A stretch of 64,000 nucleotides of DNA from Pelotomaculum schinkii (lineage in GTDB: Bacteria > Bacillota > Desulfotomaculia > Desulfotomaculales > Pelotomaculaceae). Shown piece after piece: positions 43,245-56,893 of this stretch; position 1 is the stretch's first letter, and each line of letters begins with the position of its first letter. The DNA is taken from NCBI RefSeq assembly GCF_004369205.1, contig NZ_QFGA01000002.1, positions 434,001 through 498,000 of the forward strand. The letters are read 5' to 3'. The notes under the pieces are model-generated. The model saw only the letters and a list, made by a program, of their open reading frames with translations. It was not told the DNA's origin and searched no databases. The position numbers and the translations under genes are program-made.

Positions 43245-43565
43245 CTAATCCTCAATGACTTCCTTTAATAACAGCCTTTTTTCAAAAGCGCCCCGCTCTG
43301 CAGCCTTTTTCTCCCGCAGGCTATGAAAATCGTTGATTTCAACACCCTTATACTTTAAAATGGAGTAGATTACCTCAACCAGGTCAGCCAGTTCATCAAC
43401 ACTATCGCTAGCCAGATAGTCCTGCAGCTCTTCACCGAGTTTCTGATCAAGAAATTCCTTGTAGGCTTTATCAGTAAGACTCTCAACCACGGCCCTCTTG
43501 CCGCTTTTTTTAATAATCTCCGGAATCCTATCCCGCACAAGCTTGTTATATGTAATGGTTTTCAT
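43245..43565 (-). CDS. MazG-like NTP pyrophosphohydrolase
   Basis: 106 aa, all helical. YNKLVRDRIPEIIKKSGKRAVVE, KLGEELQDYL and DELADLVEVIYSILKYKG carry the E-E..E/D..D metal motif of the all-alpha NTP-PPases. Hydrolyses NTPs; related proteins have housekeeping or phage-defence roles. Nothing odd. Confidence 0.88.
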   Translation of the reverse strand: MKTITYNKLVRDRIPEIIKKSGKRAVVESLTDKAYKEFLDQKLGEELQDYLASDSVDELADLVEVIYSILKYKGVEINDFHSLREKKAAERGAFEKRLLLKEVIED

Positions 43566-43782: not shown

Positions 43783-44151
43783 TTATACATAAACAAATGA
43801 CTGGGGTGCAAAATTCAATCCAAAGTCAGAAAGACTACGTGGCTTACTGTATTTTTTGACATTGCCCAAACGGTAGGCAACCGCTCTTTCCTTATTATGG
43901 AAATATTGATCATAAAAAACCTTTGTTATACCCGCATATTCTGATGTAATTTGCCATACTTGCTCGGGTTCATCTACAATGATCTCCATTACTTGAGCCT
44001 CACCAACCACTTGCATGACAGGAGAAGTTGCATAAATAATAATCTTGTCAACATCCTCACGACAGCGCACTTTTCTAAAATCAAACAATTTGTTCCCATT
44101 CATTATATTTTCCACATGTTCTGGATTAATCGATAATAACATTTTGCACAT
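43783..44151 (-). CDS. ASCH/PUA-like domain protein
   Basis: 122 aa. MLLSINPEHVENIMNGNKLFDFRKVRC resembles the start of ASCH domains (S-I-x-P-x-x-x-x-x-I-x-x-G-x-K-x-x-E-x-R). Probably binds RNA or a modified nucleotide. It overlaps the GNAT gene by 26 nt, so the two form one unit. Confidence 0.7.
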   Translation of the reverse strand: MCKMLLSINPEHVENIMNGNKLFDFRKVRCREDVDKIIIYATSPVMQVVGEAQVMEIIVDEPEQVWQITSEYAGITKVFYDQYFHNKERAVAYRLGNVKKYSKPRSLSDFGLNFAPQSFVYV

Positions 44152-45200
44152 CTATATCACCCATTTCTAGTATACTAAAAAATTCCTTTGGAGTGTACCT
44201 TATATTATATGGGTATTCTTCAAAAAGCCCGGCTTGTTTTAAACTATTAAAATTAACATTGTGCCCCTTACCAAAGTAACCATTATATAGCAGTTCTAAT
44301 AGTACCAGGTTCTTTTTCTTAGCGTAAATACTATTTAAGGACTTTTCGTCAAATATTGTTTTATTACCAGCCAGACTGACAAAATCGTCAACGCTCATTA
44401 ATGATGTATTTGATCTTTTCACTACAGTTAAACTAGCAATCGTGCAGAAGGATGTTGCAACAGATTTAAAAGCAGCTCTTCCTTTTGTACCGGTATATTT
44501 TCTATAAATTATCACTGGTTCGCCTACTTGATGATGCATTGGTGAAGAAGGCGCCCCTATATATACCTTTAACACACCGTTACCTGCTGTTTCTTCTTCA
44601 ATCTCATTTTTATTTCCTTTTAGTTCGGAGTAAGGGAATAAAATATCATGATATCTGTCCTCGATAGGAATCATGCCGGCTTTTTTAAAATTTGGTTCTA
44701 TAAATGGAAACGATTTAAAGGGATCTGTATAATCAATATGTTTTCTACTCTTAAGAAATACGCACTCACCTCGTGGATTCATACCAACACATACAAATCC
44801 AAATCTTTCAAATAAATTTATCAATTCTTTATGCTTCTTAAATACTGTAAGATAGATTTCATCATATCTTAGTTCCTGCCATTTCCAAAGCGAAACACCA
44901 AGTGCACCTTCTCCTAATCTCTGTACTTCTAAACCTCTCTGCTAAACGAAAAGTGCCGATCTTTATTCGCGGTATTGCTGGTAAGATTTTATCTATTAGT
45001 AAAATTTGCTCATTCTCTTCTTTGAGATAAACAAATGAACCGACCCCACGATCATCATTGAAAACTAGTGCACGCTCACCTCCTTCTCCTTTTTTCTTGA
45101 ACCATGTTGTAAATTCCTCATAGTCTGATTTAAGCGAATCGAAGAATACGTCTCGCAAATCAACTTCTGAAAACTTGCGCCACTCAAACTTACCAGCCAT
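44126..45200 (-). pseudogene. Frameshifted GNAT acetyltransferase with C-terminal extension
   Basis: N-terminal frame 45200-44862 encodes MAGKFEWRKFSEVDLRDV...RIKIGTFRLAER; it then runs out of register. Another frame reads GLEVQRLGEGALGVSLWKW from about 44927 and continues into the ORF ending at 44126. Joined, the two give a GNAT domain plus a further 200 residues. The break is at about 44934-44941 (one base lost in GAGAGGTTT). The C-terminal part could still be made from an internal start. Confidence 0.8.
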
Positions 45201-45357: not shown

Positions 45358-46833
45358 TCAACTTACTGCCACTGCTAGCGTTTGGACCATTTCCTCCACA
45401 TCAGCTTCCATGGGAATGGCCATCAGTACCAGGTTGACGCTTCTTCTGCCGGCGTTGAGAGCAGCACGGTGGTAAAGCATGCCACGTTTTTTCAAGGACT
45501 CCCAGGTATGCTTTTGGCAGGGATACACCAGGCAACTGGTTATTCTACTGGCTTCGGACAGTGTGGAATAGGCAAGCACTTGCAGCAAATCCGCTCGGTG
45601 GCGCTCACGTAATTCCTCATCGAGCCTGCCCCACCGTTCTTGGTTCAAATCCTCCCAGTGCCCTTTATACTTGGCATCAAAGATGATCGTCTCCTTTTCA
45701 CCCCGTGCAGATAAACGCTCCAGAGTTAAATCCGGCAATAAGTATTTTTGGGATCCGATATAAGGCGGGTCCCAAACCAACGGGGCAACAGTCTCCCTTT
45801 TGCGGCCCACGTGCAGGACACCCCCAATGCGCCTGGTAAGCGCCGCTGCAACGGTTTCCATCCAGGCTTCAAAAAACTCCTCCATTGGCATTACCCAGGG
45901 CAACCCCTGCATATCACCGAGCCCGGCCAACCCCCTGTCTTCAATAGCCCATTCCATTGCCTGCAAGCCATCATGGAAAACCCTGGTACGGACCGAACCC
46001 CGGTACCAGGCGCCCAATGTTACAGCGGTAGGCTGTTTCGGGATAACACTTCGCACTCGCTCCAGCAAGGATTGGCAGATACCGATTAACTGCAATACAA
46101 TAGCCCCGGCATTTCTCTGGCCTTCTAAACTAGCCAGCTGTTTGCGCAGGGTAAAATGGACCGCCGCCTTTAATTCTCTGTCATCTCGCAGATCGGGATA
46201 ACGGCAGGGCACATCCAGAAACCGGGCTGCAGAGATATTGGATGTAATATAACGGGACCACCGTATGTTGCCGCGTGGTGCCTGAAGGTTTGACTCGGCT
46301 AACTCAAACCTTCTTTCCAAGCAATCCAGCAGTTCCTTGATACGCAAAAGGATAGTTGTCGACAACACCCATTGAGGAATTTTACGGTCAGAACGCGGCA
46401 ACAAGGGCAGTTGCAGTAAAGACGGGACTACCCGCCACCCCATCTTGCCAAGCATTGAGCCGATGCCCGGCCAATCAAAACGAGGCTTAATAATGAGCCC
46501 GTAATCCGGTTTACCTGAGGTAGGTGATAACAGTGGAATGGCACCTACCCTCGTGCCGGTTTGAAGAACTACATCTACCGAGCTACCATCATAATCTAAC
46601 CCAGCCGAAATACCGAAATTCTTAAGGATGCCCTCATTTTGCCGGATGAATTGCTTTGCCAGGCGAGCCGCCATGGATTGTGGTTCTCGGGGCAGATTAC
46701 CTTTTAGAAAGGAAACGGCCGGAAGGCAGGCCATAGAGGAGTCAACAACTTCAAAACAAGGGGATTCACCCGGTTTTATCGGTACAATGGGGTTTCTATT
46801 AACACTTCTGCGTCGTTTCATTGCAGCCTTCAT
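45358..46833 (-). CDS. mcrC: McrC-like restriction nuclease subunit
   Basis: 491 aa from MKAAMKRRRSVNRN, coupled to mcrB by ATGA. The C-terminal PD-(D/E)XK nuclease shows YLLPDLTLER then ETIIFDAKYKGHW (D...DAK); the N-terminal half is the McrC-type adapter that contacts McrB. The pair should cut DNA carrying modified cytosine or other modifications. It is intact; a fragment duplicate lies at 43.6 kb. Confidence 0.85.
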   Translation of the reverse strand: MKAAMKRRRSVNRNPIVPIKPGESPCFEVVDSSMACLPAVSFLKGNLPREPQSMAARLAKQFIRQNEGILKNFGISAGLDYDGSSVDVVLQTGTRVGAIPLLSPTSGKPDYGLIIKPRFDWPGIGSMLGKMGWRVVPSLLQLPLLPRSDRKIPQWVLSTTILLRIKELLDCLERRFELAESNLQAPRGNIRWSRYITSNISAARFLDVPCRYPDLRDDRELKAAVHFTLRKQLASLEGQRNAGAIVLQLIGICQSLLERVRSVIPKQPTAVTLGAWYRGSVRTRVFHDGLQAMEWAIEDRGLAGLGDMQGLPWVMPMEEFFEAWMETVAAALTRRIGGVLHVGRKRETVAPLVWDPPYIGSQKYLLPDLTLERLSARGEKETIIFDAKYKGHWEDLNQERWGRLDEELRERHRADLLQVLAYSTLSEASRITSCLVYPCQKHTWESLKKRGMLYHRAALNAGRRSVNLVLMAIPMEADVEEMVQTLAVAVS

Positions 46834-48302
46834 CCCTGCAAGCTCTCTATCCATTGCAGATAGGCATTGATCGGGTCGGCAAAGCCTGCCACATAACCCT
46901 GGATGAGGTATTCTTCTAAGAGCGGCGCCAAATTTACTTTAAGATATCTGGCAGCTTTCGCATCGTCTTTTTCCAAGAAATATGAATGTCCAGGTACCAG
47001 GGCTAAAGCGTCATCGCTGGCATATTCAATAAAAATGGTCACCAGTTCCATAAACGCCTTATTCATTAGCTCTCCGGCATTCTCTTGCACCACTTTCAAT
47101 TGCGGCCAGAGTTTAACAAAGGCAAACCTGCGCCGGACAGCAACATCTACAATGGCAATACTACGGTCAGCACTGTTCATGGTACCCAATATGTAAAGGT
47201 TATCTGGCAATTGGAGTTTGTTTTGAAAAGGCTCTCCAAAATCATAAGGCAGCTCTAATTCTCTTTGTTCATCAGAGCGTGATTCCAGTAGAAATATAGC
47301 TTCCCCAAGGACCTTCGCTAAATCGGCCCGGTTAATCTCGTCGATATGAAGCAAATACGGCTTGCCTGGGTATTGGAAAGCCATATTGGCTGCCTTCATT
47401 AAAAACCCTTGTTGTGGGGCAAAGCGGAAACCCATGACGTCAGATGTTTGCACGGGTGCCAAACCGCCCACAAAATTCTCATAGGTGGTGTTGGGGTGAA
47501 ACTGAATGGAGAAACCATTACCTTTATAGGCCTTATGTAAAAGTTGCAAAGCCATACGAGTTTTCCCAGTACCCGGAGGTCCCTGTAAAGCAACAAAGCG
47601 GCGTTCCTGGAGAAGCCCATATACCTCCTCTTCAGTGACGTCCGGCATTAAGTGGGTAAAATATTCGGAGCGAATCCGCTCACCATCTTCTGCAGCGGAT
47701 TTTAACGGATAGATGCCACGTTCTTCAAACATCAAATCCAGAAAAGCCTTTAGAGCATCTGCAGTAGCATCTAAATTGGCGTTAGGTACAAAAAAACCAT
47801 AGATCACCTTGCCATAGCGTTCAAAGACGGAATTGTACCCTGGAAAAAACCGTTTGATGTTACCCGGCACATCCAGGTCTATTCTCACCGGCTCCTGTTT
47901 AGCCCAAGCAACTAGATTCCCCTGGCCATATTTTTTATTGAGCCAATTACAAATGGCTGAGACTTTCCGACCGTGGCCGGGTCGCGCCAGAACCTCTTCA
48001 TCGGGGCTTAATCCCTGCGTCCCAATACTCATTGCCAACACACTTGGGCCATCGGTGATGGGAAATATACCAAAGCTCATTCCTCCATAGGAACCAGAGT
48101 CAGGGTTGGAGGGATGAATCAATGAGACAAATGGAACCCCGGTCCCTCCTTTAAATTCAGGGGCACGAAGGGTTACTACCTTATTGGCCTTATCGGGATA
48201 ACGCCCCCCGCTGGCACCAAATATTTCTGCAAAGGCGCTTTTAGCTTTATCTGACCAGCTTTCAGTTCCATTGTCGTGAACAAGATTAATTAGTTGATTC
48301 AT
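46830..48302 (-). CDS. mcrB: McrB-like AAA+ GTPase restriction subunit
   Basis: About 490 aa from MNQLINLVHDNG; an upstream in-frame start at 48344 is possible. N-terminal DNA-binding region, then AAA+ domain with Walker A GPPGTGKT, Walker B LLHIDEINRADLAKVLGE and the McrB sensor MNSADRSIAIVDVAVRRRFAF. McrB binds modified DNA and moves along it; McrC cuts. Confidence 0.88.
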   Translation of the reverse strand: MNQLINLVHDNGTESWSDKAKSAFAEIFGASGGRYPDKANKVVTLRAPEFKGGTGVPFVSLIHPSNPDSGSYGGMSFGIFPITDGPSVLAMSIGTQGLSPDEEVLARPGHGRKVSAICNWLNKKYGQGNLVAWAKQEPVRIDLDVPGNIKRFFPGYNSVFERYGKVIYGFFVPNANLDATADALKAFLDLMFEERGIYPLKSAAEDGERIRSEYFTHLMPDVTEEEVYGLLQERRFVALQGPPGTGKTRMALQLLHKAYKGNGFSIQFHPNTTYENFVGGLAPVQTSDVMGFRFAPQQGFLMKAANMAFQYPGKPYLLHIDEINRADLAKVLGEAIFLLESRSDEQRELELPYDFGEPFQNKLQLPDNLYILGTMNSADRSIAIVDVAVRRRFAFVKLWPQLKVVQENAGELMNKAFMELVTIFIEYASDDALALVPGHSYFLEKDDAKAARYLKVNLAPLLEEYLIQGYVAGFADPINAYLQWIESLQG

Positions 48303-48387
48303 ATGTATCCATTCAATCTCCTTACTCTGAAATATGGCCAGCATATATACACGGTTATTAATGTTAAAATCCCTTCATCTATTTCCT

Positions 48388-50820
48388 CTATAACTTCTTA
48401 AGCAGACCAATCACAATACCATTAATTTGAACCTGGTCAGGGTTTAAATTTATTGGTTCATACCTTGAGTTTTCAGGTATCAGCAGTACACTGTCACCCA
48501 TCTGCATGTATCGCTTCAATGTCGCTTCATCATCTAGCAGGGCAATCACAATCTGTCCGTTATCCGCCGTAGACTGTTTGTTGACAATAACATAATCACC
48601 CACATCAATGCCTGCATCCTTCATGCTATCACCAACCACCTCCAGCATAAATGTATTTTTGGGCTGACTCATCCAGGTTAGCGGTAGCGTGAAGCGATCC
48701 TTGATTTCCTCATTCACTTTTAAAGGGCTGCCAGCTATCACATCACCCAAAACAGGAATGTCCATAACTTCAACATCTGGGATAGCCAGTTCTGAATCCC
48801 AGCGTTTTAATGATATAACTCCAGGCTCTTCACTGTCGCGTTCGTAAATCATATCCGGCTGGTTACGGTAGCTTTTATAACAGTACCTTTGCAATGTATC
48901 CGGCAACATTAAATTATTAAAACGTGGCAGATCCTCTATCTCGTCTAAATCCCTGTCCATAATTTTCAAGCTGTGGCCATCCGTAATTAAGCAGTACCGC
49001 ACCGTATCTAACAACCGCATATAGGAGGCGGCCTGTTTTTCTGCATCAACAATACCCGCCCGGTATTTTTTAGTTTCTACCAGTATGTAGGGAACCCACT
49101 TTCCCTGGAAATAAATTTTAACAATAATATCGGCAAATCCTTTCCGGGAAAAATCCATTACCGGATATTCCACTTCCAGCATTTCTTCTTTATAACCGTA
49201 TGAATCTATCAACTCTCTCAGAATCCACTGCCGGATCGTCTCTTCTTTTGCATAAACATCCAGGATCTTATCCTTTTTTAGATAGTCAGTTATACTAATC
49301 GGGTATAGAGGTTTGAGGCATGTATTTCTCCGGAAACGCAGATAAGCAGTGTCGATCTCCTGGATAAAGCGAGATGGTTTTTGGTGGCTGCTCAGGTAGA
49401 GCAAATCATTAGCCCGAGTCATACCGACATAGAGCAACTTCCTTTCATCAGACTCAAGCACTTTATCATCATCTTCACTCATTCCTCCAGTAAACGGGAT
49501 TACTCCTTCATTGATGCAGATAATCAGTACTACTTTAAATTCCAATCCCTTAATTGAATGCATGGTGCACACCTTCACCATATCGCTTTCAAAATTCGGG
49601 TTGTCGCGGTCTAAAATCTCGCATGGCAACTTCTGTTGTGCTAGATAATGCTGAGCTTCCTGAGCTATCCGCCTCTCTTTGGCAATTATGCATATTTCCG
49701 AAAGCTTATATTCACTTGATAGTTCATGGATGGTCACTTTTATATGATCCAATTCTTCTTTTAAAGTGGCGAAATTCCGGTAAATTGGATAATGGCCTTT
49801 ACGGTCCACTAGCAAAGGCTTGACGAAATCGGTGTCGTTCTTCAGAGTTTCATCTTTTTCCTGCAGCGAATAAGCCGCCTCAGAAATCTGGGTGGTTGTC
49901 CGATAATTTTTGGAAAGAGTCCTGCTTTTACCGCTCATATCGTAACCCAGAGTAGTATAGCTCCTGCCCTTACCCAACCAGGAGTGCGTATAAATGCTCT
50001 GCGCATTATCGGCAATAAATGTAATGCTAGAATAAGGCTTAGGCTTATAGATGCGTTTAACCATTTCCAGCTGTGCCTTCGTCAGATCCTGGCTCTCGTC
50101 AATAATAATGTGGGTATAGGTTTCCGCGTCTTTCACCGGGGATGTCAAGGCAATTTTATTTAACATCCGGAATTCCGTAAGTTTGTCCTTTGTCATTAAT
50201 TCTTGATAAATCTCTTTAAGTTCGAAAATCGAGGATCGGATCTCAGAGTTTTTCAAAAGCTTCTGAGGCGTTTTCTGCATCACATTGGTAGCCCTGCCGG
50301 TCCGGTCCACTTGCTGGTACTCTTCCAGCGTTTCAATTAAACAGGCGTCAATCCATTCTATTTCATCAATGAGAAAGTTTGCATTTTTATGGTTGATTAT
50401 CTTAGTTGCCGGTCCTTTTTCTGCTAAAAGATAAATCGCTTTCGACATCAGGCTGAATTTATCGTTATTAGAGGCAAATTTGATATTAGTATCTGAGCAA
50501 CATTTCCGATAATATGAATAAACGATGCTATCGATAGTTTTAATATCTACCTTCCCTTCAGTGCTTAGCAGCTCTCCTATGCTGATCTGGTCTTCAGGGT
50601 TCTCAACCTTGTTATAAAGGTACTTGATATAGTTCCGCAAAGTTTTATTAAAGGTGACCAGTAGAACCTTGTCGTCCTTCTCAAGACAATACCTCTTCAT
50701 AAGATGAGAAATCCGATGCACAGCCACCGTGGTCTTTCCACTACCGGCAACACCTTTAATTAAAATATGTCCGGAAGGTTCCATCAAGATCAGCTTTTTC
50801 TGTTCGAGGTTTAACTGCAT
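48388..50820 (-). CDS. SF1 helicase fused to PD-(D/E)XK nuclease and LexA-type autopeptidase
   Basis: 810 aa from MQLNLEQKKLILM, with GGAGG upstream. Residues 1 to about 510: UvrD/PcrA-like SF1 helicase (Walker A GVAGSGKTT, IIDESQDLTKAQ, SKNYRTT, TMHSIKGLEFKVV, LLYVGMTRA). About 550-640: type I restriction N-terminal-like nuclease (GFADIIVKI, ILVETKK). About 685-810: S24 LexA peptidase with cleavage site IAG (Ala696-Gly697), Ser732 in VGDSMKD and Lys769 in ATLKRY, with spacing 36 and 37, matching LexA (35, 37). There is no LexA HTH. Possibly a damage- or RecA-controlled defence enzyme (inference). Confidence 0.9.
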   Translation of the reverse strand: MQLNLEQKKLILMEPSGHILIKGVAGSGKTTVAVHRISHLMKRYCLEKDDKVLLVTFNKTLRNYIKYLYNKVENPEDQISIGELLSTEGKVDIKTIDSIVYSYYRKCCSDTNIKFASNNDKFSLMSKAIYLLAEKGPATKIINHKNANFLIDEIEWIDACLIETLEEYQQVDRTGRATNVMQKTPQKLLKNSEIRSSIFELKEIYQELMTKDKLTEFRMLNKIALTSPVKDAETYTHIIIDESQDLTKAQLEMVKRIYKPKPYSSITFIADNAQSIYTHSWLGKGRSYTTLGYDMSGKSRTLSKNYRTTTQISEAAYSLQEKDETLKNDTDFVKPLLVDRKGHYPIYRNFATLKEELDHIKVTIHELSSEYKLSEICIIAKERRIAQEAQHYLAQQKLPCEILDRDNPNFESDMVKVCTMHSIKGLEFKVVLIICINEGVIPFTGGMSEDDDKVLESDERKLLYVGMTRANDLLYLSSHQKPSRFIQEIDTAYLRFRRNTCLKPLYPISITDYLKKDKILDVYAKEETIRQWILRELIDSYGYKEEMLEVEYPVMDFSRKGFADIIVKIYFQGKWVPYILVETKKYRAGIVDAEKQAASYMRLLDTVRYCLITDGHSLKIMDRDLDEIEDLPRFNNLMLPDTLQRYCYKSYRNQPDMIYERDSEEPGVISLKRWDSELAIPDVEVMDIPVLGDVIAGSPLKVNEEIKDRFTLPLTWMSQPKNTFMLEVVGDSMKDAGIDVGDYVIVNKQSTADNGQIVIALLDDEATLKRYMQMGDSVLLIPENSRYEPINLNPDQVQINGIVIGLLKKL

Positions 50821-50995
50821 AATACTACCTCCAGGTTTCATGCTTCCAAGGGCTCAGGGGGAACAGGATGTTGACATAAAAATTTAAATATTTCTATCTG
50901 TATACCCTACCAGGGGAATTTAATATATCTCACTATATTATCAACTTGACACAATATGAATATTGGGAAATAGATAAGTATGCTTTTAAATCTTC
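50821..50995. promoter_or_regulatory. Intergenic region before the helicase fusion
   Basis: AT-rich gap holding a perfect 6+2+6 palindrome CAATATGAATATTG near 50951-50964 and a possible minus-strand TTGATA box. No typical SOS box (GAAC-N4-GTTC) was seen. Confidence 0.35.
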
Positions 50996-51526
50996 TTATG
51001 ATATTTCTATTCCTTCCTTAAAATATCTGACGTCCGGGGATTTATATTTTTCTCTTAAAGTATAAAATCCAATGAAAACACCATATTTATAATTTAAATT
51101 ATTATCTGGAGCTGTATAGCATTTAAGCTTTTCTATATCATATTCTTCGCTGATTGAACTAGATGATTTTTTAACCTCTACGATGAGCAAATTACTTCTA
51201 TGCTTTCCTCTCTTATGAACAATAATATCTGGGAAAACAGTTTTTTCAACCAGTATTCCGCTAGATATTTCATCTTCGTATTTTACTGACGTATTGATTA
51301 ACTCATGCCACTTAGATTTAAGCAGGTTGATCTTCTTTATATTATTAATATTACGATTATATTCGCAATCGATATCATAGGTTTTCCCAAAAGTTTGCGC
51401 CATATATGTGGCAAGTTTGTGGATTATACTTCTTTCATTAACATTGTTTTTTAATAGATAATTATCATTGACTCGTAAAGTATCAATGGCTAGATTTAGT
51501 CTCCTTTTTACCTGGTATAGTTCCAT
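50996..51526 (-). CDS. Small PD-(D/E)XK nuclease-like protein
   Basis: 176 aa, ATG with AAGGAG upstream. VFPDIIVHKRGK...LLIVEVKKSSSSIS is a clear D...E-x-K nuclease motif with basic N-terminal helices. No domain beyond this. It precedes the helicase fusion on the same strand; probably a partner or independent DNA-cutting unit. Confidence 0.7.
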   Translation of the reverse strand: MELYQVKRRLNLAIDTLRVNDNYLLKNNVNERSIIHKLATYMAQTFGKTYDIDCEYNRNINNIKKINLLKSKWHELINTSVKYEDEISSGILVEKTVFPDIIVHKRGKHRSNLLIVEVKKSSSSISEEYDIEKLKCYTAPDNNLNYKYGVFIGFYTLREKYKSPDVRYFKEGIEIS

Positions 51527-51604: not shown

Positions 51605-53386
51605 TCATCTTGTTACATTCATAGATATAAAACCATACCCCTTTGCCGAAAGGCGCTTTTCTGCTTCTATAGTGAGATATTTCGCATAAGTGGCCGTAGT
51701 CTTTTTTCGAAATCCAGACAAATACCCAGCTATATAACAAATGTTTTTGTTTGTCATAACATAAGTAAATTCCTCTGCACTTATCTTGTGGACTATTATT
51801 GGACGTTTAGCTACTATCCCTTTGTAATATTTTTTGAGCCACTCATCCTTAGAAATTCCTTGAAGAATTTTCTGCATATACTCTGCTGATGTTAGAATTT
51901 GATTAATTACATCTCTGACACCTTCGCCATCAAACTTTCCTTTATTATGCATAAGATATACTGTACTGTCATCCCAAAAAATAGCATCTGCAATTTCGAC
52001 ATTATTCATAAGTACCGTATGTGCAACTAAAATATTTTTTTGAGACTCGAGAATTTTGTTATATTCGGTTTCAGTTGCGGCTTTATGTAATAAAGAAAAT
52101 TTATTTGAAATAATTCCAAAATTATTAAGATGGTTTTCAAATATGCTCCCATATTCGTTGTTCAAAGCCGTCGTATATTGGGTGTCAAAAACATACCATT
52201 CTCCATTAAACAAATAAACAGGATCTTTAGTATCCCTAACTTCAACAAATCCTTGTATAGCGTCAAATATGTGTGTTGCTGGAAGTGCCAGAATTCCCGA
52301 TTCATCTTCTGTACTAATCGTCCACTTTTTCAAAAATTCATAGATGAACGCCATCGATAATCTTATTCCATTGGTTTCAAATTTATCGTATATGTCGTTT
52401 ATTTTTATAGGCTGTGTACTTTCAATAAATACATTTCCTTTAGCATCCTTAACAATATACTTACTTGCATTCAGAATGTAATCTTCAAATTCATCTCCCA
52501 CAAGTACAAACGCCCCATAGTTTTTCTCTTTAAATATCTTTTTTAGGATTTCCAGTAACTCAGAATTTTTGTAGTTCTTTTTCTTCGCAAGGACCAAATA
52601 ATTCAATGCAAAATTATCTTCTGCTTTTGTTAACTTATCGATTTTTTTTAGTACTATAATCAGTTGAGATAATGTAAAACATCTTCGTATAACTAAAGAA
52701 TCCTTGTTAACTATATTGATTTTTTTCCTTTCTGACTCGTCTTCATCAAATTTGATGCCAAATTCTTGAGCAATTTTTCTATCAACCTCGATATTTAACT
52801 GTCGATATATGCTACTCATGTCCTGCTCCACAAGAAAATTTGTTGTTTGTCTATTTGCCCTTTGTATTGATAATTGATTACCCGTAAGATTATTCTGAAT
52901 TATTTGTTTGAGAACAGGATTATCTTGTTCAATGATTTTAGGAATTAAATATAATCCAAAATTTCTATTGACAAATTTTGATATATACTTGCTTCCATAT
53001 CCACCTGTCATTCCATATAGTATTTTCCCGTTTTGATAAAGGAGTATATATGAAACATTCACATTCAACAGAAATTTCCTTGATTCGTCCTTCTCATTTT
53101 CTGAAAGCTCATTATTACTTAGTATTTGCACTACAACATCTTGCCACGCTGGGTTATGTATTGTTTTGAAAATGACTCCTTCAAAACCAAGATATTTTAC
53201 TTTTTTATATTCAGCATTACGCTTTTCTTGCAAAATTTTTAATGTTGAGTTAATTATTGCAGCTTTAATTTCTTCATAGTACCCTTTTTTGCCTTGTTTT
53301 CTAACAATAGGCATGATTTCGCTGACTCGTTCGTAGTCAATTTGATAAATACTAAATTGGGCCTCTGGTGTATTAGTACTGCTCAT
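51605..53386 (-). CDS. DUF6119 / TIGR04141 sporadically distributed protein
   Basis: 593 aa from MSSTNTPEAQFSIYQID, with GGGGG at 6 nt. Signatures GGYGSKYIS..FGLYLIPKI, IADAIFWDDSTVYLMHNKGKFDGEGVRDVINQI match DUF6119. Members appear irregularly in bacteria and often in defence islands. No nuclease motif is evident by eye. AT-rich, unlike the ICE. Confidence 0.8.
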   Translation of the reverse strand: MSSTNTPEAQFSIYQIDYERVSEIMPIVRKQGKKGYYEEIKAAIINSTLKILQEKRNAEYKKVKYLGFEGVIFKTIHNPAWQDVVVQILSNNELSENEKDESRKFLLNVNVSYILLYQNGKILYGMTGGYGSKYISKFVNRNFGLYLIPKIIEQDNPVLKQIIQNNLTGNQLSIQRANRQTTNFLVEQDMSSIYRQLNIEVDRKIAQEFGIKFDEDESERKKINIVNKDSLVIRRCFTLSQLIIVLKKIDKLTKAEDNFALNYLVLAKKKNYKNSELLEILKKIFKEKNYGAFVLVGDEFEDYILNASKYIVKDAKGNVFIESTQPIKINDIYDKFETNGIRLSMAFIYEFLKKWTISTEDESGILALPATHIFDAIQGFVEVRDTKDPVYLFNGEWYVFDTQYTTALNNEYGSIFENHLNNFGIISNKFSLLHKAATETEYNKILESQKNILVAHTVLMNNVEIADAIFWDDSTVYLMHNKGKFDGEGVRDVINQILTSAEYMQKILQGISKDEWLKKYYKGIVAKRPIIVHKISAEEFTYVMTNKNICYIAGYLSGFRKKTTATYAKYLTIEAEKRLSAKGYGFISMNVTR

Positions 53387-53672
53387 TAATGTACCCCCAA
53401 CTACACATAGTTTCTGCATGAAAAAGCAACGCAATTTTATCTCATCTAAATTTCCAATTATTAGCCTTATCGTCTGTTATCTCCTGCAAATTTTGTCAAC
53501 ACTCTCTACAATATTCGGGTAATTCCTTTGTGATTTTAATATCAGCAAACCTAAACCGTCTTATGACTAAAAAATCATGCCCGTGTTATATAAGAAATAT
53601 TTCTTGATGTAATTACTTGTAAACATTCTAAGTAAAAAGCCTATCCCCCATACTTCTCAGGCGATTTTCCTA

Positions 53673-54569
53673 TTAATTAAAAAATTTTTGCTGTATAGAT
53701 GGTAAATTGGGAATTACATCTAATACTTCCGTTATAATGTAACGTTCAGCAACCATGCTATTATCAGAATCTAGCCATAATTCAATTTCAACTTTTGCCT
53801 TCAAAGAGTCACCCGGTCTTAAATCTATTTCTCTAGAATGAAATTTTCGAAGCCATACCCAATCTAAAATTTTGACCTGAATAGTCCTCCCCTCATAATG
53901 TAAGTCCCACATTGATTGGCCGAGATAATCTGGTTTTTTAACCCTAAGAATTAACTCCACTTCAGACCTTACAATCTTATTGGTTAGTAACTCTTGTATT
54001 GACTCAGGTGAGATATTGAATTCTTTATTTATAGTTACCTGACCCTCAGGACTAATGTAAAAAATTTCATCACCAGGTAATAAGCTTTTTGTTGCATTAC
54101 TTAGTCGAGAAATATTTACAAGAAATCTTTGAGTAGAGCCGGGGGAATAATTAGGTAACCTTTGTACATCCGTTTCCTGTGCAATTTCAAGTATTTCTCC
54201 TTCAATCTGCTGGACTTCATCAATTGAAATGATTTCCTTTTTATCTTCTAACATTTTGAGTATTCTGTGTTTGGCTTTAACAAGAAAACTACCAACAAAC
54301 TTTTTCCAATCAAGTTCTTTCAAAGCTTCATCATCAACAGAACTAACAATAGTCCTGACTATAGTTCTCAAAGAGCCTGATAGAATATCTTCTAATAAAA
54401 ACTCTGGCTCAATTTTAACTGAAAAATAATCTAATAAACCTTTATCAATTTCATATAATGAATCAATAATCTCAGACATTGTTTTGAATATTCTTGAGGG
54501 ATTCTTACTATTAACAACATAACTTAATTTAACTTCAAATATTTGATAGTGATCGGTACTCAATAACAT
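53673..54569 (-). CDS. Hypothetical protein of the defence island
   Basis: 298 aa from MLLSTDHYQIFEVKLSYV behind AGGAGG. Helical N-terminal half, beta-rich C-terminal half (VELILRVKKPDYLGQSMWDLHYEGRTIQV). No domain recognised; no membrane segment. First gene of the AT-rich set that includes the DUF6119 protein, the nuclease and the helicase fusion; could be a sensor or partner (inference). Confidence 0.65.
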   Translation of the reverse strand: MLLSTDHYQIFEVKLSYVVNSKNPSRIFKTMSEIIDSLYEIDKGLLDYFSVKIEPEFLLEDILSGSLRTIVRTIVSSVDDEALKELDWKKFVGSFLVKAKHRILKMLEDKKEIISIDEVQQIEGEILEIAQETDVQRLPNYSPGSTQRFLVNISRLSNATKSLLPGDEIFYISPEGQVTINKEFNISPESIQELLTNKIVRSEVELILRVKKPDYLGQSMWDLHYEGRTIQVKILDWVWLRKFHSREIDLRPGDSLKAKVEIELWLDSDNSMVAERYIITEVLDVIPNLPSIQQKFFN

Positions 54570-55268
54570 ACAAATCCTCCTAAAATAGGTTCTCAAGTTT
54601 CCTCTTAAGTACCCTCTCTGATGCTATAAATTTGGCCATTAGTTAATTTGATAAAACCTCATTTTCTCCAACAAGGTTGGCTATATTTAAAAACTAATTA
54701 ATTGAATGAATTTTGCTATTATTATACTTTAGGAGCATAATGACTAAGGGATACTACTTATGGTCTGATTGGCGGAATATTGAATAACTTTGTACCCGTT
54801 ATCAAATTGGTTAATGTTTACTTGCTTACATACTTCTACCTCCTGAATAAAATCTCCTATGTATCCTTGTCATTTTTCCCAAGAATTTAGCGAAAAGGGA
54901 ATCTCGGCAAATCAACATAGAGAAAAAACTAGGTAAACAATTCAAAAATGGATAGCGTTACTATTTACCAATACCAGAACGTTCTAATATTGCGTATAAT
55001 ACCCCTACGATTTATCTTAAAAAAGACAACGCCCCTTTTAACCCGCGGTACGCATCGGTGGGTTTCAGGGGCGTTTGTTTATAAATACTTGACCGGGACA
55101 TTAATTTTTTCCTTTTCCTAATAAAGGCTAGTCCCGTTCCTTTCTTCATAGAAAAATATTTCTACTCCGAAATTCCTGCATCATCGAACCGTGACTAGAT
55201 GGTTTCCCATCCCCGCCAGAGGGATCTCTACAGGCGTAAATTCCCGGAGAACTTCCGGTACTCAAATT
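54570..55268. other. Non-coding gap before IS607, with terminator and possible TnpB guide RNA
   Basis: About 700 bp without a gene. Contains the terminator hairpin at 55028-55075. The last 130 bp next to the TnpB 3' end (55140-55268) are GC-richer and hold short pairing segments; in IS607/IS605 elements this is where the omega RNA lies, so it is the candidate guide RNA and element end. No exact IS end could be fixed. Confidence 0.4.
55028..55075. terminator. Terminator hairpin AACGCCCCT/AGGGGCGTT
   Basis: Nine paired bases at the outer arms, with inner AACCC/GGGTT pairing, followed by TTGTTTATA on the plus strand and TTTTTTAAG on the minus. Separates the IS607 element from the 53.7-54.6 kb gene. 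Confidence 0.7.
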
Positions 55269-56337
55269 TTAAGCAACGCTTATTGCATATTTCTTCAGGT
55301 TGACAGCTGCATTAACATCACGGTCATGATGCGCTCCGCAGCAAGGACAGTCCCATTCACGAATAGACAGGGGCATGCTATCCATCACATAACCGCAAGA
55401 TGAGCATGTCTTGCTGCTGGGATAAAATCGGGGAGCGACTATCAGTGTTGACCCGTACCACACAGTCTTATATGCTAATTGCCGCCGGAATTCTCCCCAG
55501 CCCACGTCTGCGATATGCCTGGACAACCGGTCATTTTGCAACATCCCGCGGACATTCAAATCTTCGATCACGATCCCCGACTTGGTTTTCGCCAGAACTG
55601 TCGTGAGCTTGTGCATGAAGTCCCGCCGGCTGTTGCGGATGCGCCGGTGCAGCCGGGCTAATCCAAGAGCGCTTTTCTTCCGGTTGTTGGAGCCTTTTTG
55701 CATCCTGCTGTGTTTCTTGGATAATCTCTTGAGTCTTTTCAGATACTTGCCCAGAGGTTTAGGGGCTTCGATCTTTGTCCCGTCAGAAATGCTCACAAAA
55801 TGATTAAGTCCAACATCAATACCGATAACTTCGCCGCTGACTTGTTCCGGTTCTGGAATCTCCACCTCGCAGGTTAAACTGACAAACCAGCGATCCGCTT
55901 CCCGGCTGACAGTGGCCGACAGAATCCGGCCGCCTATCCCTGGTTCTTCTTTGAGGCGGAGCACCCCCAGACGGGGAAGCTGGACGGCCTTGTCTTCAAC
56001 TCTGATCGATCCCGTCAATCGAAAAGAGTCATGCACGCCCTCTCCAGCTTTCAGGCCGGCGAAGAAGTTCTTGAAAGCCCGGTCCAGATCCCGAAGGGCT
56101 TCTTGGGGAGCGCACTTGGATACCTCGTACATCCAGGGAAAATTCGTTTGCTTGAGTTTATTCAATTCCCGGTGTTGCGCCATGGCATTGGTAGACTTTT
56201 TCCGTTTGATATAACGCTATCCGGCGGGCTAAACCCCAGTTGTAGGCGAAGCGGGCGCATCCGGCATGTTTGGCCATGAGGATTCGCTCTCGCACATTTG
56301 GCTTTAGCTCATACCTATAGGCACGGTTAATGATCAT
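55269..56337 (-). pseudogene. tnpB: IS607-type TnpB, frameshifted
   Basis: N-terminal frame MIINRAYRYELKPNVRERILMAKHAGCARFAYNWGLARR...TEK overlaps the tnpA stop; after GGAAAAAG it loses register and the main frame STNAMAQHRELNKLK...KKYAISVA continues. One extra A (five instead of four) explains it, at about 56198. The RuvC residues are present: D in GIDVGLN, E in VIEDLNV, D in HHDRDVNAAVN, with zinc ribbon CSSCG..CPCCG. TnpB is an RNA-guided nuclease; the frameshift may inactivate it or be bridged by slippage. Confidence 0.85.
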
Positions 56338-56893
56338 GCTCTATAGCCTCCATTGCTTTTTTGGCCTTGTTTTTAGCTGCTCTGCGGCCATACAGCCTGG
56401 CACAGAAAGATGTCAGGACTTCAATCATGTCCTGAACTAAGTCATCTTTCATTTCAGACTGCTCCATCACGATCACACGTCTACCCTGGGCAGCAAGACA
56501 GCTTTCCACGTATTCAAAGCCAAATCGCATGAGACGCTCACGATGTTCCACCACGATCACTCGAACCTTTGGATCTGACAGCAATTTCATTAATTTCGGG
56601 CGGCGCCCATTCAGGCCGGAACCGATCTCTGTTACGGCTTTACCGATTTCCCAACCTTGTTCGTTTGCATAGGTTAGCAGGCGGGAAATTTGACCGTCCA
56701 GATCGCTTTTCTGGTCTGCGCTGGATACTCTCGCATACAAAGCGACTGTTCCTGATGATTCTCCGCTTTCTTTGATCAGGATTGTTCCTGTTGGGGTTTG
56801 TTCTGCGGGAACAGGTAATTTTCCTGACTTGAACCATTTCCAGGCAGTCCTGTAGGTAATTCCGTTTTTCTTTGCCCATTCACTTAGCTTCAT
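56327..56893 (-). CDS. tnpA: IS607 family serine recombinase TnpA
   Basis: 188 aa. MerR-like HTH at the N-terminus (MKLSEWAKKNGITYRTAWKWFKSGKLPV), then catalytic domain ALYARVSSADQKSDLDGQ with Ser in RVSS, and VVEHRERLMRFG. Moves the element. Its stop overlaps the tnpB start. Complete. Confidence 0.92.
   Translation of the reverse strand: MKLSEWAKKNGITYRTAWKWFKSGKLPVPAEQTPTGTILIKESGESSGTVALYARVSSADQKSDLDGQISRLLTYANEQGWEIGKAVTEIGSGLNGRRPKLMKLLSDPKVRVIVVEHRERLMRFGFEYVESCLAAQGRRVIVMEQSEMKDDLVQDMIEVLTSFCARLYGRRAAKNKAKKAMEAIEHDH

Follow-up and report, generated by a model that had tools for sequence, protein, structure and literature searches.

LexA-type self-cleavage is known from repressors and from UmuD. 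In LexA, the phage repressors and UmuD, RecA assembled on single-stranded DNA stabilises the cleavable form, and a Ser/Lys pair then breaks an Ala-Gly (or Cys-Gly) bond within the same protein. UmuD and HumD place a LexA-like self-cleaving domain outside transcription, and in UmuD, a small polymerase subunit, cleavage is activating. Among defence proteins, GajB of Gabija and several others carry UvrD-like SF1 motors, the PADLOC entry C3a187 unites a nuclease-related NERD domain and a UvrD helicase in one protein, and the HsdR subunit of type I restriction enzymes holds an HSDR_N-type nuclease. Helicase and nuclease activities also meet in Nhi, Hna and AbpAB, compared here by their described activities. 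All three have been reported to respond to phage SSB and AbpAB also to DNA damage, and AbpAB requires neither RecA nor LexA (PMC10732053); the excerpted text of that report notes no S24 switch for any of them.

The gene analysed here brings together elements of these systems. It lies in a stretch of 64,000 nucleotides from Pelotomaculum schinkii (contig NZ_QFGA01000002.1, positions 434,001 to 498,000; hereafter the window), with the features listed below. Residues are numbered on an 810-aa protein, and counts refer to the 25 S24 domains of the family.

48388..50820, minus strand: helicase-nuclease-S24 fusion gene (single ORF; GGAGG and conserved ATG; Pfam and NCBIfam domains)
49321..50820, minus strand: SF1 (UvrD/PcrA-like) helicase, residues 1-500 (Pfam UvrD-helicase and UvrD_C, motifs, fold)
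48949..49248, minus strand: HSDR_N_2 PD-(D/E)XK nuclease, residues 525-624 (Pfam, alignments, fold)
48391..48756, minus strand: S24 / LexA C-terminal self-cleavage domain, residues 689-810 (Pfam, TIGR00498, LexA folds)
48730..48735, minus strand: predicted scissile bond Ala696-Gly697 (Ala and Gly each in 24 of 25)
48625..48627, minus strand: predicted nucleophile Ser732 (25 of 25)
48514..48516, minus strand: predicted general base Lys769 (25 of 25)
50821..50966, minus strand: upstream region travelling with the gene, about 146 bp (identity to the relatives L083 and L084 ends at 50960-50966)
46830..48344, minus strand: McrB-like AAA protein (AAA_5; PRK11331 McrB at 1.1e-32, below its cut-off)
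45358..46854, minus strand: McrC-like nuclease, partner of the neighbouring McrB (PF10117 at 4.7e-10, above cut-off)

The fusion gene is one uninterrupted ORF, whose longest reading (48388-50841) spans 817 aa. A GGAGG precedes the ATG at 50820 at normal spacing and this start is kept in the closest relatives, so that the protein made from 48388-50820 is likely the 810-aa form. The Pfam domains, with positions computed in 817-aa numbering (subtract 7 for the 810-aa form), follow in the order UvrD-helicase (7e-21), UvrD_C (3e-25), HSDR_N_2 (1.9e-19) and Peptidase_S24 (3.2e-32). An earlier reading of the sequence alone (the sequence-only reading) had proposed an SF1 helicase, a PD-(D/E)XK nuclease and an S24 peptidase in one polypeptide, and Pfam and fold matches agree; a chance or assembly join is ruled out, as more than 20 independent genomes show this architecture. 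The helicase motifs are all present (Walker A GVAGSGKT, DESQD, TMHSIKGLEF and VGMTRA) and its structure model resembles PcrA, UvrD and AddA in a fold search, giving the window protein the Walker A, Walker B, SF1 motifs and fold of a UvrD/PcrA-like enzyme. Its nuclease shows the D...ExK and QxxxY signatures and the fold of the HSDR_N-type PD-(D/E)XK group: D564, E582-x-K584 and Q596-xxx-Y600 are invariant in aligned full-length homologues, and the model matches BsaXI and EcoR124I HsdR (Z 9.4 and 6.9). Helicase motifs and nuclease residues alike are intact throughout the aligned family.

These parts are arranged differently from those of the described systems. C3a187 is the best PADLOC match (4.4e-36), whereas the nuclease of the window protein is of the HSDR_N_2 type, lies C-terminal to the helicase and is followed by S24. 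Similarity to GajB and other defence helicases reaches 2.8e-31, but the window protein carries its own nuclease and S24 domain. GajA, an OLD-type nuclease, is not adjacent in the window, and among relatives an OLD-type neighbour occurs at L083 only; Gabija is rejected for want of a conserved GajA. In contrast to type I HsdR, the motor belongs to SF1 rather than SF2 and the nuclease comes after it, and neither HsdM nor HsdS was found among the scanned neighbours in the window.

The C-terminus scores above the NCBI curated cut-off for LexA (TIGR00498, 129.6 bits against 110.95), and the UmuD/HumD model scores lower. The TIGR00498 match is confined to model positions 78-201, and a Pfam scan found no HTH family; the LexA DNA-binding domain is therefore absent, as had been claimed. 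The bond and catalytic pair named by the sequence-only reading, Ala696-Gly697 with Ser732 and Lys769, proved exact in 810-aa numbering, and their spacing (36 residues from Ala to Ser, 37 from Ser to Lys) is within one residue of that in E. coli LexA (35 and 37; A84, S119, K156). In fold searches the S24 model retrieves LexA structures at Z 16-17, headed by the RecA-bound or cleavable-form entries 8s7g, 1jhe and 8gms; since matches differing by less than 1 in Z count as ties, the lead of the cleavable form is no more than suggestive. Unlike LexA, the window protein couples the domain to an enzyme and has fusion-specific positions, M774, G775, L779, Y787 and E788, conserved in the family but not in LexA, which may contact the rest of the protein. 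The full-length structure model places the three parts against each other with low confidence (pTM 0.54) and shows no inhibitory contact.

The sole exception at the scissile bond is the protein of Ilyobacter polytropus (Fusobacteriota), which reads VSGD there and keeps Ser and Lys; with this one natural homologue devoid of Ala-Gly, cleavage may not be universal in the family. When the window gene is compared with its 93% relative, the S24 domain and the helicase give nearly equal dN/dS values, 0.077 and 0.080 respectively.

A search for other helicase-S24 fusions, which the sequence-only reading had proposed, recovered more than 20 homologues that share the three-domain order at 42-93% identity, including that of I. 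polytropus (43% identity over 99% of the length by tblastn). A scan of 85,000 genomes yielded full-length copies in Anoxynatronum, Tissierella, a Bacilli MAG, two Clostridium species, Caloramator, Desulfotomaculaceae and Pelotomaculum, and of 398 genomes drawn evenly from Bacillota, 17 besides the window's own held long homologues, in ten families; the fusion is present in about 4% of the sampled genomes of this phylum. No homologue with a complete C-terminus was found to lack S24, the apparent exceptions being contig ends, frameshifts or stops, and in 61 genomes all other strong S24 matches sit in open frames of at most 360 aa, longer frames belonging to the fusion family only. On the S24 tree the fusion requires one or two changes, and a single origin is not rejected. 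A prophage or phage origin is rejected by the lack of any full-length match among phage records and viral contigs. Two further weak matches from the 398-genome draw (L088 and L089) are helicase-only and belong to a different cluster of consecutive UvrD-like helicase genes, which includes a distant relative of 480-500 aa with neither nuclease nor S24 and looks like a separate multi-helicase system.

Among 13 genomes of one bacterial family, five have the gene intact, two have a broken or truncated copy and the rest have none, as expected of an accessory gene. Five of six decayed copies are broken in the helicase-nuclease part, a pattern considered as a sign of toxicity but one that the length of that part predicts. 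One locus (L086:7891-8922) retains nuclease and S24 only, in an intact 343-aa frame from which the helicase is gone, and may have decayed or may be a minimal version of the protein. In the closest relative but one, from a Pelotomaculum MAG (L084/L039), a stop removes the last 24 S24 residues and the catalytic pair is kept.

The window shares DNA identity with its two nearest relatives (L083 and L084) to no more than 30 bp past the 3' end of the gene and to 140-146 bp upstream of its start, and the neighbours differ; the mobile unit thus consists of this one gene and the region upstream of it, in which a scan finds promoter-like hexamers. A LexA box resembling CGAAC-N4-GTTCG is absent upstream of all homologues, the best site agreeing at 8 of 10 positions in one of them and at 5-7 elsewhere. 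Transcriptional control through such a box is accordingly rejected, and control at the level of the protein fits.

Most copies of the gene lie in defence islands, where McrBC or a different type IV restriction enzyme is frequently the neighbour. In the window, the McrB-like gene lies 43 bp downstream on the same strand, as part of a separate neighbouring type IV restriction system. McrBC is also adjacent at L033, L036 and L037, and probably at L078, and absent at most other loci, so that the fusion is not an obligate McrBC accessory, which would always be adjacent. A helicase-nuclease resembling mREase_IV/DUF3427 is found near the gene at L034, L037, L038, L066, L067, L073 and L077; 20 host genomes contain ten mREase_IV-like copies in all, and four of these lie within about 3 kb of the fusion gene, where far fewer than one would be expected by chance. 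Other neighbours in relatives include OLD, AAA_13, GmrSD, reverse transcriptase, JetA, DpdF and NERD proteins. Recurrent defence islands and a patchy, mobile distribution are the marks by which guilt by association assigns genes to defence, and both are seen here. The Ilyobacter copy has housekeeping neighbours and lies outside any obvious island, and in one genus the copy is found next to a peroxiredoxin gene, at a similar place close to where the chromosome records begin.

Several other genes were observed around these loci. Just upstream of the unit in the window (50996-51526, minus strand) is a 176-aa nuclease-like protein matching PADLOC PD-Lambda-3_A at 1.5e-25, followed in the same island by a 609-aa DUF6119/TIGR04141 protein (51605-53434, minus strand) and by a protein (53673-54596, minus strand) that matches NCBIfam LAPAL_fam, described as a putative structural protein of phages, and, weakly, PDC-S42, yet is situated in a defence island. 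Farther out (55269-56893, minus strand), a serine recombinase and TnpB-like pair resembles an IS607-type element by its ORF translations. On the other side, adjacent ORFs at 44862-45200 and 44126-44824 (minus strand) correspond to the beginning and the end of PADLOC PDC-M11A, a candidate defence protein whose gene therefore looks split by a frameshift, and PDC-M11B (6e-43) follows intact at 43783-44151 (minus strand). A small MazG-like pyrophosphohydrolase recurs near the fusion gene in three loci (window 43245-43565, minus strand; L036:20784-21095; L077:5650-5961).

With all parts of the LexA switch conserved, it is simplest to suppose that the window protein would cleave itself likewise, parting residues 1-696 from the C-terminal domain. 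The explanation tentatively favoured here, at somewhat less than an even chance, is a stand-alone defence effector, latent until RecA-filament-stimulated self-cleavage turns it on; we infer the cleavage, RecA as its trigger, activation as its outcome and phage as the target. A UvrD-like motor and an HsdR-type nuclease would be held latent by the C-terminal LexA-type domain; phage replication, or a neighbouring restriction enzyme cutting DNA, would yield single-stranded DNA on which RecA loads; the filament would stimulate self-cleavage at Ala696-Gly697 and so remove the C-terminal domain; and the freed helicase-nuclease (1-696) would degrade DNA. The constant domain order, the nearly invariant cleavage machinery under purifying selection, the resemblance to RecA-bound LexA, the mobility of the gene across unrelated contexts and its defence neighbours are all consistent with such an effector. 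The direction of the switch is not readable from sequence, and we lean only weakly towards arming, on the grounds that the released part is catalytically complete, that signs of transcriptional control are missing and that forms without S24 are unseen. Against this explanation as a whole stand the Ilyobacter homologue, the uncertain packing of the domains with no visible inhibitory contact, and the risk that an enzyme armed by RecA filaments would pose to cells with ordinary DNA damage. The sequence-only reading had suggested a defence enzyme with an S24 switch that could turn it on or off; the intact, conserved and selectively maintained S24 domain and the mostly defensive neighbourhoods uphold this in part and make it the best reading, though it may not extend to the Ilyobacter copy.

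The opposite polarity, doubtful in its own right, is nearly as likely as the arming of the effector. As a built-in form of restriction alleviation, the uncut protein would be active, perhaps as a dimer through S24, and RecA-stimulated cleavage upon host DNA damage would disarm or destabilise the enzyme and spare the chromosome. Such a switch would follow the logic of LexA and the phage repressors and would suit HsdR-type enzymes, which need RecA-linked restriction alleviation. Cleaved LexA exposes a latent ClpX signal, and the ends that cleavage would generate in many members, [V/I]AA, resemble it, with Ala preceding the scissile Ala in 17 of 25. The window protein would however end in -VIA, and others in -VVA, -VSA or -LTA, so that the degron is not conserved, and the fragment left after cleavage retains all catalytic motifs.

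Improbable, by comparison with the cleavage-gated effectors, is a housekeeping DNA-repair enzyme under SOS control. A UvrD/AddA-like motor joined to a LexA-type switch, the surroundings of the Ilyobacter copy and the recurring site beside the peroxiredoxin gene would agree with repair, but the patchy presence within a single family, the single-gene mobility, the strong restriction-gene neighbourhood and the missing LexA box do not. Improbable too, and if anything a shade more so, is a tether, in which S24 would bind RecA filaments in the manner of LexA and UmuD and so bring the helicase-nuclease to invader DNA that is recombining or replicating, with proteolysis incidental. The fit of the S24 model to RecA-bound LexA and the Ser/Lys pair that Ilyobacter retains beside a lost Ala-Gly would accord with docking, but a bond so widely kept, together with an invariant Ser and Lys, is hard to explain if cleavage is unused. 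That the S24 domain is a neutral remnant, as the truncated close relative might suggest, is very unlikely, since it is under purifying selection equal to that on the helicase, its catalytic residues are invariant over deep divergence and no intact S24-less homologue was found.

No description of the fusion was found in the open literature, a search that most subscription papers fall outside; PADLOC 2023 contains no model specific to it, and the NCBI name of the Ilyobacter protein is just 'S24 family peptidase'. The parts are thus known, and their combination appears new. The fusion probably represents a genuine mode of gating a DNA-attacking enzyme, undescribed so far, and more than 20 relatives across Bacillota and Fusobacteriota retain the switch nearly unaltered. 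A bolder proposal, offered cautiously and with less than even expectation, is that these proteins form a widespread one-protein defence family in which a LexA-type switch gates the effector directly and irreversibly upon RecA filaments, bypassing transcription. Type IV restriction enzymes would be its frequent partners, and their cuts could serve either to arm or to disarm the effector. The only predicted cofactor protein would be host RecA. If true, the SOS signal, RecA on single-stranded DNA, would be linked to immunity at the protein level, which opens the question of whether the state of the RecA filament licenses or vetoes a DNA-degrading defence.
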